NCBI GenBank assembly: GCA_945919375.1
Contig: CAMEJD010000001.1
Coordinates: 118,689-182,688, forward strand
Reading direction: 5' to 3'
From: an uncultured Clostridia bacterium
GTDB taxonomy: Bacteria; Bacillota; Clostridia; Christensenellales; UBA1242
Length of the DNA: 64,000 bases
Shown here: in pieces, positions 38,013-47,499 of the stretch
Layout of the letters: each line of letters opens with the position of its first letter
Position numbering within the stretch: the stretch's first letter is position 1
Notes under the pieces: model-generated
What the model was told of the DNA's origin: nothing
The model's database searches: none
What the model saw: only the letters and a program-made list of their open reading frames with translations
Translations under genes and position numbers: made by a program

Positions 38013-39403
38013 TTATCCAAAAATTTTATTGATTTTTTCTGAGGCATGAATGTCGCTATTTTGCAAGAAGTGAGAATAGAAGTCGCTTGTTGTGCTTGCT
38101 CTGGCATGGCCTGCACGCGTTGAAACTGTCTTCATATCAACACTTGAGTTAAGCAGTAATGTTATATTAGTGTGTCTAAGTGAGTGGAGTGTAACGATTG
38201 GCAGTCCAGCGCGTGCAAGTATTTTTTGGAGCCATACTCTAAACAGCCCTGGACAGATATCTCTACCATCTTCTCTGCAGAAGAGCCTGTCCGTGTCACC
38301 AAGTCTATCGCCTAGATAATGTTTTCTATTTAGCCACCAAGCTTCGTATTCGTGTAAGTATTCAATAAGTTTATCTGGCATGGAGATTGTGCATTTTGAA
38401 TTCTCTGTCTTTGGCTCTTTGGTGATTATCCCAAATCCCGCTATGTCCTGAACAGATCTTGCAATGGTCATTGTTTTATTTTCGAAGTCTATATCTTTCC
38501 ATTCAAGACCAGCAAGTTCGCCACGCCTTATTCCCATAAAGAGTGCATGAGCAAGGCAATCTTCCATCTTGGGTTGTCTAGGTTATCTAAGTATTGGGCA
38601 AGTTTCTTTGCCTCTTTGTCATTAAGTATCTTAACTTCCTTTTTATAGCCTTGTATTGGTGCGATGTAGTCACGGGAAGCAAAGTTATGCTCAACTAATC
38701 TTTGTCTTTTTGCATCGGCTAAAATTGTTGCGAGTGTTCTTTTTAGTTTTAGTATTGTTTCTTTTGCGTATGGATGGCTAATTACTTTAACATCAAACCA
38801 TTCATCAAAGTTTAGGTTTAGTGCACTGCATATTGTTTTGGCGCTATCAATTCTTATACCATTGCCAACTTTGGCTGAGTAATATATTGATCTAGAGATG
38901 CCACTATTTCTAGTAGCATCAACCAGTTTTATGAAGTGAGATTTTAAGTATTGTGTTAAATCTCTTTTTAGGATTGCATATCTCTGCTCATATTTCTTTG
39001 CCATCATTTCATCTAAGAAGCCTTGCACCATTATTGGTGTTATTTGGTTGAGTTTAATATTGCCAAAGTAAGCATCAAACTTTCTAATATTGTCTTTACC
39101 TTTAATGTAGTAGTTTAGTGATCTGGTGTTCTTTATCTTTTCAAGCCACTTATTGGCATAATCTATAAAGGTTATGTCATTATCTACTGCAAGCATACCA
39201 TTAAGTTGTTTCTTGAATTTATCTTCAAAATCTAGGCAAACCCTTTGCAATTCTTTCTTTGCTTGAATTTCAGTTAAGTCGTTTGGCTTTCTCCAGCACA
39301 TTGACTTAGCTATAAATTGTCCAGTCCTAAGGTCTTTTGCCTTTACTTGTATTCTATAGGATATTGTTCCGTCATTTAATTTTTTCTTTCTTACACATGC
39401 CAT
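38013..39403 (-). pseudogene. int: tyrosine recombinase/integrase, split by a frameshift into two ORFs (38528..39403 and 38013..38567)
   Basis: N-part SAM-like domain; C-part GIRRGELAGLEW...HSLRHTNITLLL...AGHARASTTSDFYSH; frames join as LLMALFMGIRRGE if one base is restored near 38546. Confidence 0.88.
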
Positions 39404-40800: not shown

Positions 40801-40968
40801 AGATCACATGCTCCTTTTGTAGGTTTTTAATTTTCATTTTTATCTCCTTTATTTAAATTTTTTGCCTCCACAAAGATTGATCAGTTTTTTGCTTTGGCAT
40901 ATATTTTAACGAAGTCTGCAGTCCTTCGGTAAAACCAAGTTTGGTTATTTACATTTTCATTCTATCAA

Positions 40969-41647
40969 TCCCGTGGTACCACCATTTGGTACTACGGGAA
41001 TTATTTTTATTGATTATTTTAATTTTAACAAGTCCGATGTATCACCATTTGATATATCGGGATTTAATTTTCAAAAATATTTTAACTTTTTCGATATGAC
41101 ACCATTTGTCGTATCGGAATAGCTTTCTGACAATATTTTATAAAGTTTGTTGTGCAAGCCCTTTGCACAGCGGAATTAAATTTTCATATTTTTTCGCCCC
41201 TTTTATTCAATTCTAACAATGTCAATGGCTCACCATTTGAACCCTTGAGATAAATTCTGTCTACATTTTAACAATCCCGCTCGGACACCATTTGTCCGTT
41301 CGGGGAATTTATTTAAGCCAATTTTACAATTTCCGCGTAGACACCATTTGTCCGTGCGGGGAATATTTTTTATTTTAAAACCTCCGTTGTAAACACATCT
41401 TTGACAGCGGGAAATATTTTTCTTTAATTTTACAAGTTTAGGACTGCCATCATTTGGCACAGCTAAAAATATTTTCATATTTAATTTATCATCTCCGTAT
41501 CACTACCGTCTTGTGACACGGGAAAAGTTTTTAGCTTCTGCACTAATTTTAGAGCATAGTCTTGTTCAGCATTTGAACAGGTTAAAATTGTTTGTTTAAC
41601 TTTTTTATAATAACAATCCCGTATTGACACCATCTGTCAACACGGGA
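40969..41647. repeat. array of ~12 hairpins, 11-bp unit-specific stems and conserved 7-nt loop
   Basis: e.g. CCCGTGGTACC-ACCATTT-GGTACTACGGG, TCCGATGTATC-ACCATTT-GATATATCGGG, TTCGATATGAC-ACCATTT-GTCGTATCGGA, TTTGTTGTGCA-AGCCCTT-TGCACAGCGGA, CCCGTATTGAC-ACCATCT-GTCAACACGGG; spacing about 50-72 bp. Confidence 0.9.
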
Positions 41648-41704
41648 ATTAAAAAAGAGATATTTTTTTGTAAATATCTCTAAAAATTTATTGATTTTAT
41701 ACGT

Positions 41705-41917
41705 AAGGTGTCACACGTATCACACGTGTCACACTTGTTATACTAGTGTAAAGTGACACTTAAACCTCTTTTACCTTTTAGTGTTTTTGCGACTTTTTGT
41801 TCATTTTTAAGTGTGACACCTTGATTTTTAAGGTATCACACTTGTTTGATTGCTAAAATCCTTTATTTATCAGAGTTTTAGGCTATGTGTGACACCTTGT
41901 GATACGTGTGACACCTT
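41705..41917. repeat. iteron-like GGTGTCACAC / GTGTGACACC repeat cluster
   Basis: aaggtgtcacac, atcacacgtgtcacac, agtgtgacacctt, aaggtatcacact, gtgtgacacctt, gtgatacgtgtgacacctt. Confidence 0.8.
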
Positions 41918-42127: not shown

Positions 42128-45100
42128 TTATTCTCCAAACACTTCATCAAGTTTTTGTTTAAGTGTCCCATCTTGGGCAAAAGGCAGGGAATCAAACTGT
42201 TTTAGATTGTGTTTATCTATTTTTATATCTTTGTCAAAACCTAATATGAATGATTTTGCAATTCTGTAAATAATTTCTGTTGGTGCTAAGCCATACACTT
42301 GTTTTGCAAAAATATGACCTAATCTGTCGGCATCATTTGGATAAAGTTTTTTCATATTTGTACTTCTATAAAGCCTTTTAACAATTTCTGCAATATAAAG
42401 TCCTGATTTCATATAAAGGTCTATAAAAGTATGATTTGGGTCATCAAAGCAACCTGGATTTTCTTTTTCAAGATTATCTACCATTTCTTTGACAACTTTC
42501 TTTGGTGTAAATATTTGATTGGTCTTTTGAGGTGGAATATAGTCAAAAATATCTTCTTTTGAGTTGTCGTCAAAGTAATTTGCGAGATCTTGTTTTTTCT
42601 TCAAAAATTCTTTTATTGAATCATTGAAAACCACTGAATCAAAAAATCCATTATAATGTTTGTTTTCGCCGTTTTCATCAACATAATCAAAGCCATCTCT
42701 TAACTTTCTAAAATCATCTAGTGAAATACTTGTTACTTCTTTAAACACTTCATCCGGTATTATTTTATCAAAATTCTCCAAGGTAGTATTTTCATCTCCA
42801 TATGCCATCAAAAATGATGGGATAGTCCTTGAAAAGCCTCTTAAATGGTCACGGACATTATCCATTAAAGAATCTTTTTGTTTTTCTTTTTTATCCGTTT
42901 CAACGGCATCAACAATTGTTCTGCCTGCATTATCAATAACATTTTTAACTTCAGATTGAATAGAACTCATAAAGTTCTGTTCAATTTCTTTTTTCTTTTC
43001 ATCAAATTTTGTGTTGATTTCTGCAATCTTATGAATATTTCCAGTTTGTTTTGCATTTTCAAGTTCTTTTGATCTTTCATTTTCAAGTTTGTTGTTGCTT
43101 ATTTGATAATTGCCATATTGTTTTTTTACAAAAGTATCTGCCGTTGTGTTTATCTTTCTAACAAGTGCTTGCTGAGTAGATTTAGATAAATCACTGCCAT
43201 AATTTTCTTTTGCAGTTTTAACTAGTGTGTCTGTAATATTTGTGTGGAATGCATCTAAAAGAGCATTAAGTTTTTCATCTTTTTTATGTGTGCTTTCATT
43301 TTCTTTTTGAATTGTTGTAACAGTGTCTATTAAACTTTGTTCAATATCTCCATAAATCTTTTCTCCAAAAACATTATTTGCAGTTCCAATAACTTGTTCT
43401 TCTGGAATTACAACATTTCCTTCATCATCTAAATTAAGTTCTTCTTTTGTATCTTCTTTTATTCCAACAGGCTCTTTGATAGGTTCAAATTTTTGAAGAA
43501 TATCCAAAACTTCCTTTGGAGCATTAAATATATTTCCTACATTTTGGAATAAGAAATTACTCATAAATCCACGGCGAACAACTTCTTTTGCATGAATTGA
43601 CCTTGGTATTGATAAAACTTTTTCAGCATCAAGTTCAATCATTTCACCATTTGGATCTTCGCCATATACAGGGAAGAAGTTAAGAAGTTCTCTTACATGT
43701 TGTTTTCTAGTATCAGAGTCTCCACGACCTTTTGCTGTGTCAGCCATAAGGTCATTTGCAAATTCTTCAACAATAGTAAGCGTTCTTGCAGGATCAAAGT
43801 CAAATACATAAGAATTTTGTTTTCTGTAACTCTCACTTCCATTTTTAAATAAACATGGATTTTGTGCTCTAAAAGCCGATTGCATATATAGTGCAGGGCT
43901 CTTTACGTTTGAAAGCATCATAACAGCAGTCCATTCTGGAATGGTAATGCCAGTTGTAAGTTGCCCTACGGAAATAGTAATTGTTTTATCGTTGTTTTTT
44001 ATTGCTTCAACAACTTTATCATAAGAGTTTTTGATATTCTTTTCAAAACTTATTTCATCACTAGAATTCCCTTCATTGTCTATCTTACCATCGCCAGCCG
44101 CAAGGACAATTTTGTAATCTTTGAAAACCTCATGATTTTGCAACTTTTTAGCGAGAGCCTTTGCACTGCTAACATATTTAAGCAACCACAATGTGTGCTT
44201 TAATTCTTTTCGTAATTCTTCGGTTGAAAATGGAAATTTTTCTTGTTTTGTTAGGGCATCTAAAAATTTATCCACTGCATCATTATGTATAAATTCACCA
44301 CTTGCATTTGTATCAAAAAAGTCGTTTAAGTCCCAGCAAAATGCTTCATTTTGTCCATCGTTGTCAAAGTCTGCACCTTGTTCTACTTTGTCACGAATAA
44401 TATCTGACATTTTGTAGGTGAAAAGATTAAGTTGAGGAAGGTTAGCATAAGGATTTTCTTCTTCACTTGATTCATTCCACTCATGTTTTGCTTTTTGTTC
44501 ATCAGCATAAGTCCAGTTATAAATTGCTTTTGGTGGAAACTTATCATTTGCAAGTGCTTTAAAAGGTGTGCCAGATAAGTGAAGAGTGTATCTCCTTTTT
44601 ATTTGGTCAAATGCCACATCGGTTTTGTAAGTATCAACTCCTTCATGTGCTTCATCAATAACCAAAACATCCCATTCAAGGTCAGCAACTTCTCTAAGTT
44701 TATCAAACATACCACCAAAGTATATTGAACCTTTAAGGTCCTGAAGAGACACAAATTCTATGCAGCCTTTGTGATTTGGTTCAGATATTAGGTCAAGATA
44801 TTTTTCTCTTGATAATACATATTTTTTGTCTTTAAGACCATCAACATTGCTTACAAAATAATATCCTGATTCTGTTCCCATAAACTTAACATAATCATCA
44901 TACCATGAGTTTGCAATAGCCGGTCTATTGGTTACAATAAGTATTTTGTTAATGTTAGGGAGTGCCTTACATAAATCATAAGTTGATAATGTTTTGCCAA
45001 ATCTTGGCTTTGCATTCCACAAACATTCAGCTTTGTGAGAGTTGTCTAAAAAGTAATCTTTTGTTTGCTTGACTGCATCTTTTTGTTCTTTTCTTAAAAC

Positions 45101-45493
45101 ATATGGGATAACACCTAAAGTGTGCAAAACACCTTTATCTCTTTTAAACTTTCCAAACAAAATATATGATTCATCACCAGAAATATAAAACCATTCTGGG
45201 CAGCCTTCTGCATCAGGTTTTGGATCTTTTCTTTTAATATCATTTTTAGCAAGATATGAGTGAAACTCTTTGTCTGTGAATCTTGTTTTTCCATCGGAAA
45301 ATATCGCAAGGTCTTGCCATTCTTTTTTTGCCACAACATCTACTGTTTGTGTTTGCTCTTTTATTCTTGCATCAACATCTCTTTCAGTGTATCCAATCTT
45401 TGTCCAACCATCGTGATAGACCACACCAGGGGTTGTATAAGCATAAATCATAGGAGCAACTTTTTCAGCTGTTTTAATTTTTATCTTTGCCAT
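42128..45493 (-). CDS. restriction-type DEAD/DEAH helicase with N-terminal GIY-YIG-like (T5orf172-like) domain
   Basis: N-term YAYTTPGVVYHDGWTKIGYTERDVDARIKEQT; helicase motifs NAKPRFGKTLSTYD, LVIDEAHEG, LHLSGTPFKAL; C-term NQIFTPKKVVKEMVDNLEKENPG...FIDLYMKSGLYIAEIV. Confidence 0.82.
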   Translation of the reverse strand: MAKIKIKTAEKVAPMIYAYTTPGVVYHDGWTKIGYTERDVDARIKEQTQTVDVVAKKEWQDLAIFSDGKTRFTDKEFHSYLAKNDIKRKDPKPDAEGCPEWFYISGDESYILFGKFKRDKGVLHTLGVIPYVLRKEQKDAVKQTKDYFLDNSHKAECLWNAKPRFGKTLSTYDLCKALPNINKILIVTNRPAIANSWYDDYVKFMGTESGYYFVSNVDGLKDKKYVLSREKYLDLISEPNHKGCIEFVSLQDLKGSIYFGGMFDKLREVADLEWDVLVIDEAHEGVDTYKTDVAFDQIKRRYTLHLSGTPFKALANDKFPPKAIYNWTYADEQKAKHEWNESSEEENPYANLPQLNLFTYKMSDIIRDKVEQGADFDNDGQNEAFCWDLNDFFDTNASGEFIHNDAVDKFLDALTKQEKFPFSTEELRKELKHTLWLLKYVSSAKALAKKLQNHEVFKDYKIVLAAGDGKIDNEGNSSDEISFEKNIKNSYDKVVEAIKNNDKTITISVGQLTTGITIPEWTAVMMLSNVKSPALYMQSAFRAQNPCLFKNGSESYRKQNSYVFDFDPARTLTIVEEFANDLMADTAKGRGDSDTRKQHVRELLNFFPVYGEDPNGEMIELDAEKVLSIPRSIHAKEVVRRGFMSNFLFQNVGNIFNAPKEVLDILQKFEPIKEPVGIKEDTKEELNLDDEGNVVIPEEQVIGTANNVFGEKIYGDIEQSLIDTVTTIQKENESTHKKDEKLNALLDAFHTNITDTLVKTAKENYGSDLSKSTQQALVRKINTTADTFVKKQYGNYQISNNKLENERSKELENAKQTGNIHKIAEINTKFDEKKKEIEQNFMSSIQSEVKNVIDNAGRTIVDAVETDKKEKQKDSLMDNVRDHLRGFSRTIPSFLMAYGDENTTLENFDKIIPDEVFKEVTSISLDDFRKLRDGFDYVDENGENKHYNGFFDSVVFNDSIKEFLKKKQDLANYFDDNSKEDIFDYIPPQKTNQIFTPKKVVKEMVDNLEKENPGCFDDPNHTFIDLYMKSGLYIAEIVKRLYRSTNMKKLYPNDADRLGHIFAKQVYGLAPTEIIYRIAKSFILGFDKDIKIDKHNLKQFDSLPFAQDGTLKQKLDEVFGE

Positions 45494-47499
45494 TATTTCA
45501 TCTCCTTTACATGAGATTCAATAAAGTTAATTTCGTTTTGGTCAAGTCCATACTTTTTATATAACTGCAAATCAATTTCATGTATAGATTTTGACCAATC
45601 TATATCAGACTTGTCTGTAAAATCTTGAAGAGGGATAAGAATAAAGGACTCTTTAGATATATTCAACGAATGTCTATTATAAAATAGTAATGCTCTAAAA
45701 TATTTTGACTTAATATACTTTAAACAATTCTGTGCATCCGTAAGCATATTAAATGGTCCTATTTCCAAAAACGTCTCTGTACATAAACTATCCGGCATTC
45801 CAACAATAATTTCAGGAGGAACTGTTGAAGTTGTCATATATGCTTTTGAGAAATATAATTTATATTTGTTGATATTGCCACTATTTTTAGTAATTTTGTC
45901 TTTATCTATAAACCCAACAACTCTTTTAGCACCACCTTTTTTACCAGCTACACCATAGATTTTTACGCAATTTGCTTTTTCACTAAAACTAATGTCCAAA
46001 TCTTTATATTTTTCAAGATCATTAAACAAATCGGCAGAAAGTCCATAAGGATTTCTGTATGAAACAATTTCACTAAATTGCTTTTTGCTAGAAGATTTTT
46101 TTATAATTGATGATTGTCGATAATCCCTTATAACAGTATTTGAATATTCTGTTTTAAGATATCTTTTTGAATATATCGCTTCTTCGTCTTTTGGTTTATA
46201 TTTAAAATTAACCAAGCCATTATAATCTTTTTTCCATACTAAATAACATACGCCACCATCAATATGAACTCCTGGAAAACATTCTGAAGCATCTTCATAG
46301 TCAGCAATACTTTTTATATGTGTATCAATCATCATTTCTTGACGAAAACTTTCTAATCCTTTTCCACCTTTCATCCATCTGCTAGGAACAATTAAGGAAA
46401 AACTATTATTAGTTATTTTTTTTGCTTCGTTTATAAAAAATTGATAAATCGGTTTAGCACTATCCCCAGTACCACCACCATCACTTTCTTGATAAGGTGG
46501 ATTTCCTATAACAAAATCAAATTTCATACGCTTTTCTCCTTTGAAAAATTTAATTGATCTTTTGGTTTCCCAGTTCATTATTCGTGAGTATATTCCAGTG
46601 TGCTTACTGTTATCGTTTTTTGCACAACCTAAACAAGGCTCTGTCTCTTCATCTTCAAATAATGACATTTGTCTTTTTTGCACAGGTTTGCAACTGTTTG
46701 GAATAACATCTTTTAGTCCGTCCATTTGCCATATATTCCAAGAAAGTATTTTTGCAATTTCTATCAAATACTCTTTTATCGGGAACATTCCAAATTTTGC
46801 AATATAATAATCTATAAATGTGAATAGCAGATTTTCTCTCGCAATCAGTAAACTATCGCCTTGCCATTCATAACCATAGGCTGACTTGAATGCTTCAAGC
46901 GTCCAGTTGTACCAATCTGGTTCACTGTCACATTGTTCATTCACAACTCGTAGTTTTCTATCAAGTGCACCAATACGGTCATTTACTTCTATCCACTGCC
47001 CAGTTGTTGTATCGTATCTGCTAACTAGAAATGGAGCTTCGCCACAAGATATTTCTAAAACTTTTGACTTAACATAATCTTGCCAGGTTTTGCCATCTTC
47101 ATTTGAAAACTGGATTTTGTTTTTACTGGTTATCCAGGTTTTTTCTTTTTCTGTGTTAAAGACATTTTTCTTTTCAAACCACTCATCAGATAAATGGTTG
47201 TTCATCTCATTGCATATCCACGATGGAGTGAAGACTTCGGCTTTATCTTTGATTCTTATCTTTTGCTCTTTTTGTGATTTGTCTATTCGTGGTCTAATTA
47301 CTTTTCCAAATCTGCCAGTAATAAGTTTTACTGTGATGTGCTCATAAGCGTCATACTGAGCACCTTTTTCTGCATAGGTATCAGTTGCCCAAATTATGTT
47401 TTTGCCAGAGCTTCTGTCTTTTAGGAGAATGCTTAAGAGTTCATCATCTAAGCATTTTATGTAGTTTTCTTTAATGTCTATATCTGGGTGCTCAGTCAT
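45493..47499 (-). CDS. Eco57I-like N6-adenine DNA methylase/RM protein
   Basis: AEVFTPSWICNEMNNHL, DFVIGNPPYQESDGGG (NPPY), SWNIWQMDGL. Confidence 0.87.
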   Translation of the reverse strand: MTEHPDIDIKENYIKCLDDELLSILLKDRSSGKNIIWATDTYAEKGAQYDAYEHITVKLITGRFGKVIRPRIDKSQKEQKIRIKDKAEVFTPSWICNEMNNHLSDEWFEKKNVFNTEKEKTWITSKNKIQFSNEDGKTWQDYVKSKVLEISCGEAPFLVSRYDTTTGQWIEVNDRIGALDRKLRVVNEQCDSEPDWYNWTLEAFKSAYGYEWQGDSLLIARENLLFTFIDYYIAKFGMFPIKEYLIEIAKILSWNIWQMDGLKDVIPNSCKPVQKRQMSLFEDEETEPCLGCAKNDNSKHTGIYSRIMNWETKRSIKFFKGEKRMKFDFVIGNPPYQESDGGGTGDSAKPIYQFFINEAKKITNNSFSLIVPSRWMKGGKGLESFRQEMMIDTHIKSIADYEDASECFPGVHIDGGVCYLVWKKDYNGLVNFKYKPKDEEAIYSKRYLKTEYSNTVIRDYRQSSIIKKSSSKKQFSEIVSYRNPYGLSADLFNDLEKYKDLDISFSEKANCVKIYGVAGKKGGAKRVVGFIDKDKITKNSGNINKYKLYFSKAYMTTSTVPPEIIVGMPDSLCTETFLEIGPFNMLTDAQNCLKYIKSKYFRALLFYNRHSLNISKESFILIPLQDFTDKSDIDWSKSIHEIDLQLYKKYGLDQNEINFIESHVKEMK

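Follow-up and report, generated by a model that had tools for sequence, protein, structure and literature searches.

A tandem array of putative promoters with diversified palindromic operators upstream of a Rep-like gene in gut Clostridia

The window, that is the whole stretch of DNA that was analysed (64,000 nt), contains at 40959–41657 an array of 12 inverted-repeat units in noncoding sequence, and each unit is most likely a promoter on the minus strand reading towards a Rep-like gene, not a hairpin of RNA or single-stranded DNA. Together the units quite likely constitute a keyring of promoters, an OR gate that senses many helper ICEs and drives the Rep-like gene. The element should then be integrated but not self-transmissible, with twelve tandem promoters in front of the Rep-like gene, and in each of them a palindromic operator, specific to one allele of a regulator here called c6, would stand in place of the -35 hexamer. 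The c6 gene would be the first gene of the transfer operon in ICEs of the same bacterial family, located behind a single promoter of like design, and since the c6 recognition helices differ between ICEs the operators should differ as well, each ICE-specific helix having its ICE-specific operator. The satellite, which is without c6, would have collected operators for many c6 alleles, so that any helper expressing a matching c6 could switch on its replication or mobilisation, with c6 straddling the -35 position and activating as DriD does. Sensing of many helpers would be the benefit.

The array and its pairing

The unit is a 31-nt inverted repeat with 13 pairs around a 5-nt centre, and the centres are spaced by 51–75 bp (Table 1). 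A preliminary description, made from the letters of the window, had reported a hairpin-like repeat, which stands, but with 11 bp around a 7-nt loop, which does not. The array itself is real, as 86.5% of the cells pair against 62.7 ± 2.9% in shuffles (0/500) and only 34–46% with slid partners. Both sides have changed at 11 of the 13 pairs, so the claim that most positions of this noncoding array are mutually compensated is borne out, and the covariation score is 0.699 compared with 0.10–0.22 for slid structures. A covariance model built from the array recovers all 12 units, with only a weak reverse match, to unit 12, on the opposite strand. Units at 41220, 41382, 41437 and 41555 pair less well, the first and third of which had already been pointed out. 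The array was also correctly set apart from CRISPR, attC and iteron sets: the identical repeats and unique spacers of a CRISPR are not found, the arms vary, and the AT-rich spacers carry conserved motifs.

The strong pairing and covariation, and the location of the arrays beside genes for mobilisation or Rep, a possible place for an oriT or origin hairpin, would fit tandem hairpins acting single-stranded as an origin, RNA sponge, leader RNA or terminators. On the plus strand of the window 18 G.T and 7 A.C mismatches are present, an excess that stems largely from one outer pair (G.T 23 and A.C 7 at that pair in the larger set) and at first favoured such a structure, a reading that was rejected by the symmetry in the larger set. 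Among 158 distinct units the variable arm (palindrome positions 5–10) is 79% Watson-Crick and has 55 G.T against 59 A.C (P=0.78), whereas of the two only G.T would be tolerated by a folding strand. Dyad symmetry is thus found without a strand preference for wobble pairs, as in operators of dimeric proteins, and the mismatches, being strand-symmetric, are those of an operator in duplex DNA and not of a folding strand. G.U is not favoured over A.C, no Rfam family was above threshold for the array, and the stems track the recognition helix of a DNA-binding protein (see below). A single-stranded role is therefore very improbable. Instead of the conserved fold of the preliminary description there are strand-symmetric mismatches, a -10 element at a fixed distance and stems that follow a recognition helix, and its ssDNA or cruciform origin, RNA hairpins, RNA sponge and plus-strand terminators found no support.

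Table 1. Features of the array and of the neighbouring genes in the window.
Feature	Position	Strand	Description
Tyrosine integrase	38013..39403	-	split into two overlapping frames
Small ORF, 72 aa	39418..39636	-	between Rep-like gene and integrase; no family match
Rep-like gene, 211 aa	40165..40800	-	the gene that all twelve promoters reach first
Extra TAAAAT -10-like box and other palindrome	40904..40934	-	CGAAG-N9-CTTCG, CTGCAG centre
Unit 1 (closest to gene)	40959..41009	-	-10 at 40959-40964; palindrome 40969-40999 TGGTACCA/TGGTACTA; A/T tract 40999-41008
Unit 2	41022..41072	-	-10 at 41022-41027; palindrome 41032-41062 ATGTATCA/TGATATAT; one arm identical to the ICE operator (ATACAT) of helix SRLTVFRH
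Unit 3	41079..41129	-	palindrome 41089-41119 ATATGACA/TGTCGTAT
Unit 4	41135..41185	-	palindrome 41145-41175 TTGTGCAA/TTGCACAG; no matching regulator found
Unit 5	41210..41260	-	palindrome 41220-41250 ATGGCTCA/TGAACCCT; SRSTVKRH operator with one mismatch
Unit 6	41265..41315	-	palindrome 41275-41305 CTCGGACA/TGTCCGTT; exact arms: SERTVRKH and SQRTVRRH operators
Unit 7	41321..41371	-	palindrome 41331-41361 CGTAGACA/TGTCCGTG
Unit 8	41372..41422	-	palindrome 41382-41412 TTGTAAAC/TTTGACAG; exact arm: SRQTVHKY operator
Unit 9	41427..41477	-	palindrome 41437-41467 GACTGCCA/TGGCACAG; no matching regulator found
Unit 10	41483..41533	-	palindrome 41493-41523 TATCACTA/TTGTGACA; exact arms: HKNTVYRH operator
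Unit 11 (weakest)	41546..41596	-	palindrome ~41555-41587 CTTGTTCA/TGAACAGG; SKMTVRRH operator with one mismatch
Unit 12 (most distant from gene)	41607..41657	-	palindrome 41617-41647 TATTGACA/TGTCAACA; SKRTVIRH operator with one mismatch
GTGTCAC-rich direct/inverted repeats	41705-41915		GTGTCACAC-type; between array and cargo
Cargo beyond array	42128-47499		ResIII helicase (1121 aa, with additional fused sequence); Eco57I-type methylase (668 aa)

Promoter anatomy of the units

When 61 non-redundant units are aligned on the centre, they show a common layout on the minus strand, with A-tracts at -56 to -47, the centre of the palindrome at about -32, and then the sequence TAAAAT at a fixed distance (T93 A100 A79 A89 A89 T100 percent), a pattern that characterises sigma-A -10 elements. 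The TG of an extended -10 (TGnTAAAAT) is present in 50% of the units, at the constant position of the sigma-A motif TGn-TAnnnT, and the 105 model matches are, with few exceptions, exactly 51 nt long. The constant loop of the preliminary description is conserved, but equally so are the ATTTTA (plus strand, or TAAAAT when read on the minus strand) at 10 nt from the palindrome and the UP-like A/T tracts on its other side. Where a -35 would be expected the units read AAATGG, and matches to TTGACA amount to 1.24/6 in the units and 1.47/6 in the ICE promoters, compared with 2.60/6 in random window sequence; a recognisable TTGACA 16–18 bp upstream, as in standard sigma-A promoters, is not found in the units.

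Genes beside the arrays

The product of the Rep-like gene has a weak match to the replication initiator family phrog_428 (E 9e-6) and no family in Pfam. Since the controlled gene is Rep-like and located next to the GTGTCAC-rich repeats, which are a possible iteron set for its product, arrival of a helper may trigger replication of the satellite. The -10-like box and palindrome between the array and the Rep-like gene are also found in the Rep-type loci L038, L064 and L075 and probably serve as a promoter that is constitutive or under separate control. The position of the 72-aa ORF suggests an excisionase. The homologue of the integrase in the relative G027 (L038) is intact in one 463-aa frame, and the split in the window is ascribed to a frameshift or an assembly error. 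The cargo genes probably encode a restriction system.

All arrays with classifiable flanks face an operon with an RHH gene (and a MobL relaxase, identified by Pfam), a Rep-like gene, or xis/int, a few arrays at contig ends or with unclassified neighbour genes being left without a context class, and variable cargo genes are found on the far side. The second class of loci are ICEs, which have exactly one unit each; the labels ICE and mobilizable refer to the gene content of the stretches fetched. In the ICE of G029 the operon downstream of the unit encodes VirD4, a MobL relaxase, a TrbL-like protein, a TraG/VirB4-type ATPase, an ArdC-like protein and an integrase. In ICEs the unit is followed first by c6, which starts ~55–72 nt from the unit centre. 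This gene turned up exclusively beside single ICE units, and the array-element loci fetched are all without it. Judged by gene content the array elements resemble SGI1, with an integrase, mobilisation or replication genes of their own, no T4SS, and promoters that match helpers.

With many sites of varied specificity and no regulator gene, an array might be thought to act as a decoy, by which the satellite soaks up the c6 of the helper to disturb or control it, and satellites often interfere with their helpers. A decoy would, however, need neither a -10 that is near 100% conserved at a fixed distance in every unit, nor the mobilisation, Rep or xis/int genes that all classified arrays face, and we regard this explanation as quite improbable. 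An origin of transfer was also considered, which fits the adjacency to the relaxase, but was rejected, as the unit also fronts c6 in ICEs, ~1.5 kb upstream of the relaxase, and fronts Rep or xis/int where a relaxase is absent.

Relaxase-type mobilizable elements have a Shine-Dalgarno sequence and an ATG-TAA (GGAGGTGTGAAATGTAA) just after the array on the minus strand, at the place where ICEs have the Shine-Dalgarno and ATG of c6. This start-stop mini-ORF is present in most of the readable elements of this type (L039-L044, L047-L051, L053, L057-L059, L061, L063, L066, L072-L074, L078), and is possibly an mRNA stabiliser or the remnant of a deleted c6. In ICEs (e.g. L080, L099, L109, L119) a LexA-like S24 repressor is encoded upstream of the c6 promoter, often followed by a cysteine-rich protein of 60–69 aa (CPxCGRxxG...), and the repressor suggests that the ICEs are controlled by DNA damage. 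In L046 the ICE gene next after c6, second in the operon, encodes a protein of ~170 aa ending in an HTH similar to sigma-70 region 4 (weak Pfam match, E 3e-4).

The c6 regulator and its predicted operators

The c6 proteins are short winged-helix proteins of the HTH_11 type, about 110–130 aa long. They match HTH_11-type families only, and not WYL transcription factors, but longer relatives of the c6 HTH carry WYL, and one of these, in another family, is WYL+WCX. From whole genomes, genome contigs and viral contigs 36 pairs of c6 and promoter were collected, with the operator chosen by a score that is blind to the protein, and in these the distance between recognition helices correlates with the distance between stems when the rest of c6 is controlled for (partial Mantel r=0.389, P=1e-4); no such correlation with the stem is seen for the remainder of c6, given the helix (r=-0.058, P=0.85). 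Reduced to a single pair for each of the 26 distinct helices, the set gives r=0.387 (P=1e-4). Residue X in the motif S-x-X-T goes together with the first three variable bases, I/L/C with ATA, K/R with TC(C), S with AC/AA, M with AAC/TTA and N with GTG, in classes formed post hoc (permutation P=1e-4). L116 and L130 are 92% identical outside the helix, have different helices and differ at 8 of 12 arm positions; L124 and L185 are 52% identical with similar helices and both have GTGAC, and L119 and L183, 44% identical and also with similar helices, have TCCCA-like arms. A single difference at residue X is sufficient to separate operators. The half-sites thus covary with the recognition helix across c6 alleles, and from sequence the palindromes are most likely operators to which c6 is predicted to bind. 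Binding by a protein of a mobile element, as had been proposed, is therefore still the best reading, but the product of the Rep-like gene, named for this role in the preliminary description, gives way to what is most likely a regulator encoded by ICEs.

In an AlphaFold2 model of c6 (mean pLDDT 80) the recognition helix comprises residues 35–48, and the residues coupled to the operator are located where the third helix of the winged HTH begins. No confident structural neighbour of the model was found in PDB (best E 0.016). The LexA-like repressor, a plausible binder as it adjoins the single units, was rejected, since near-identical DNA-binding domains are found beside different operators: L119, L124 and L125 share this domain, yet the site of L124 differs, and L112 and L113 have nearly identical LexA proteins and different sites.

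By analogy c6 would activate rather than repress, because the -35 is missing and the longer HTH homologues carry WYL, a family with known activators. Moreover, many promoters whose regulators are absent would be of use only if they stay off until those regulators arrive, which favours activation. The palindrome centre at -32 and the absent -35 give the same geometry as in DriD sites, and as c6 is without a WYL domain the analogy to DriD and PafBC is drawn from the HTH and from the geometry of the promoter. The c6-type proteins might instead be repressors, as many HTH_11 and WYL proteins are, that autoregulate the transfer operon of the ICE, in which case the promoters of satellites would be silenced by resident ICEs. 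The operator overlaps the -35 position, a classical repressor site, and c6 heads its own operon, as autorepressors often do, but a single resident would silence one of up to 13 promoters, leaving the gene constitutively on and the extra units pointless, and a repressed promoter should retain its -35, which is here depleted. Repression by c6 is for these reasons considered unlikely.

In the genome of the window no strong c6 was found (best match E 2e-7, 31%), and no resident helper can thus be named. No c6 was found in plasmid records, and the search of phage records gave two weak matches in Listeria.

Shared operators and turnover of units

There are 33 multi-unit arrays with 181 units, 2–13 per array. 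Among 109 distinct arm pairs from arrays 44% contain an arm identical to that of an ICE operator, compared with 13.3 ± 2.9% in a column-shuffled null set, where 0 of 300 reach the observed value. In the window units 2, 6, 8 and 10 are exact to known operators, and units 3, 5, 7, 11 and 12 are one base off, a kind of match that is common by chance (63% in shuffled sets). For the common array stems TGGTCAAG, GTGTGCAG and TGTCCCTG no c6 partner has been found so far. Correction of quasi-palindromes, a known mutational process, could by template switching produce paired arms without selection, the units being neutral repeats. It predicts neither the coupling to the c6 helix, nor the invariant -10, nor the exact reuse of stems in ICEs, and is extremely improbable as an explanation.

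The element in the window and its relative in G027, which belongs to another genus, have Rep proteins that are 98% identical and ~92% identical DNA in the int-rep region, and their arrays have some units in common and others that are different, indicating that the repertoire changes faster than the element. In the related arrays L043, L061, L072, L074 and L078 the order of the shared units is kept, with single units lost or gained. On balance we are inclined to think that satellites have a counterpart of an adaptive repertoire, in which they gain, lose and retune promoter keys following a diversifying family of helper regulators whose recognition helices have a readable residue-to-base code, and that the array predicts which helpers can be exploited.

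Distribution

As had been suggested, the array was searched for elsewhere with the covariance model, which matches units in 54 of the 310 genomes of the window's family, a count that is too low for units with other centres as the model favours CCATT. This family consists of gut Clostridia with genomes mostly of 0.8–1.4 Mb. In an even sample of the class (292 genomes) two were positive, both of the window's family, as were all 16 positive genomes among 199 relatives searched, and units were found in none of the other families sampled. The window's own genome has two more arrays, on contigs 22 and 20. The sequence data are mostly metagenome assemblies, and the records of the relatives are gut metagenome assemblies, mostly of Clostridia, with one of Candidatus Caccopulliclostridium gallistercoris. 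The Rep-like protein gave no or weak partial matches to viral contigs, plasmids and phages, and relatives were therefore taken from whole genomes. Exact stem patterns in viral contigs gave 0–3 matches, in coding-looking sequence with no adjoining -10. No paper on such arrays was found in the open-access literature.

Comparison with known systems

In the phage satellites of the P2-P4 and SaPI/PICI types, factors of the helper trigger expression of satellite genes, but the helpers are phages and there are one or a few switch points; we know of no arrays of alternative promoters in these systems. If the proposed model is true, the DNA of a satellite lists the helper alleles to which it answers, with entries that are predictable from a few c6 residues. 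The 26 distinct recognition helices with their operators would be a natural set for a DNA-recognition code of winged helices, useful also for orthogonal pairs of promoter and activator, and c6 and the arrays would allow tests of how regulators and operators diversify between helpers and hitchhikers.

The c6 proteins share an HTH_11-type winged helix with DriD and PafBC. DriD binds a pseudo-palindrome that is centred on a -35 with 1–2/6 matches and has a constant distance to the -10, and its two DNA-binding domains flank sigma region 4 (PMC12340889), and PafBC works by sigma adaptation (PMC11804915). Unlike these, c6 is without WYL, is encoded by ICEs and has hypervariable recognition helices, and its role as an activator is our inference.

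The SGI1 and MGI islands are integrated, not self-transmissible, and woken by AcaCD of IncC plasmids or SetCD of SXT (PMC4605294, PMC5704250), and the promoters of SGI1 answer to AcaCD, the activator of its helper (PMC4605294). The array elements are alike in that their promoters carry predicted sites for a regulator of the helper. In SGI1/MGI, however, one family of helper regulators acts at few sites before different genes, whereas here up to 13 tandem promoters with operators that are all different are located before one operon, and the predicted regulators are a diversified family, c6, unrelated to FlhDC. How mobilizable elements recognise different helpers, the helper range of 'hitchers', is an open question (PMC11389934). 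Mobilizable elements with several oriTs, of which pEC156 is mentioned in that source, broaden their helper range; there the cis sites act at the level of DNA processing, whereas those of the arrays would act at the level of regulator sensing.
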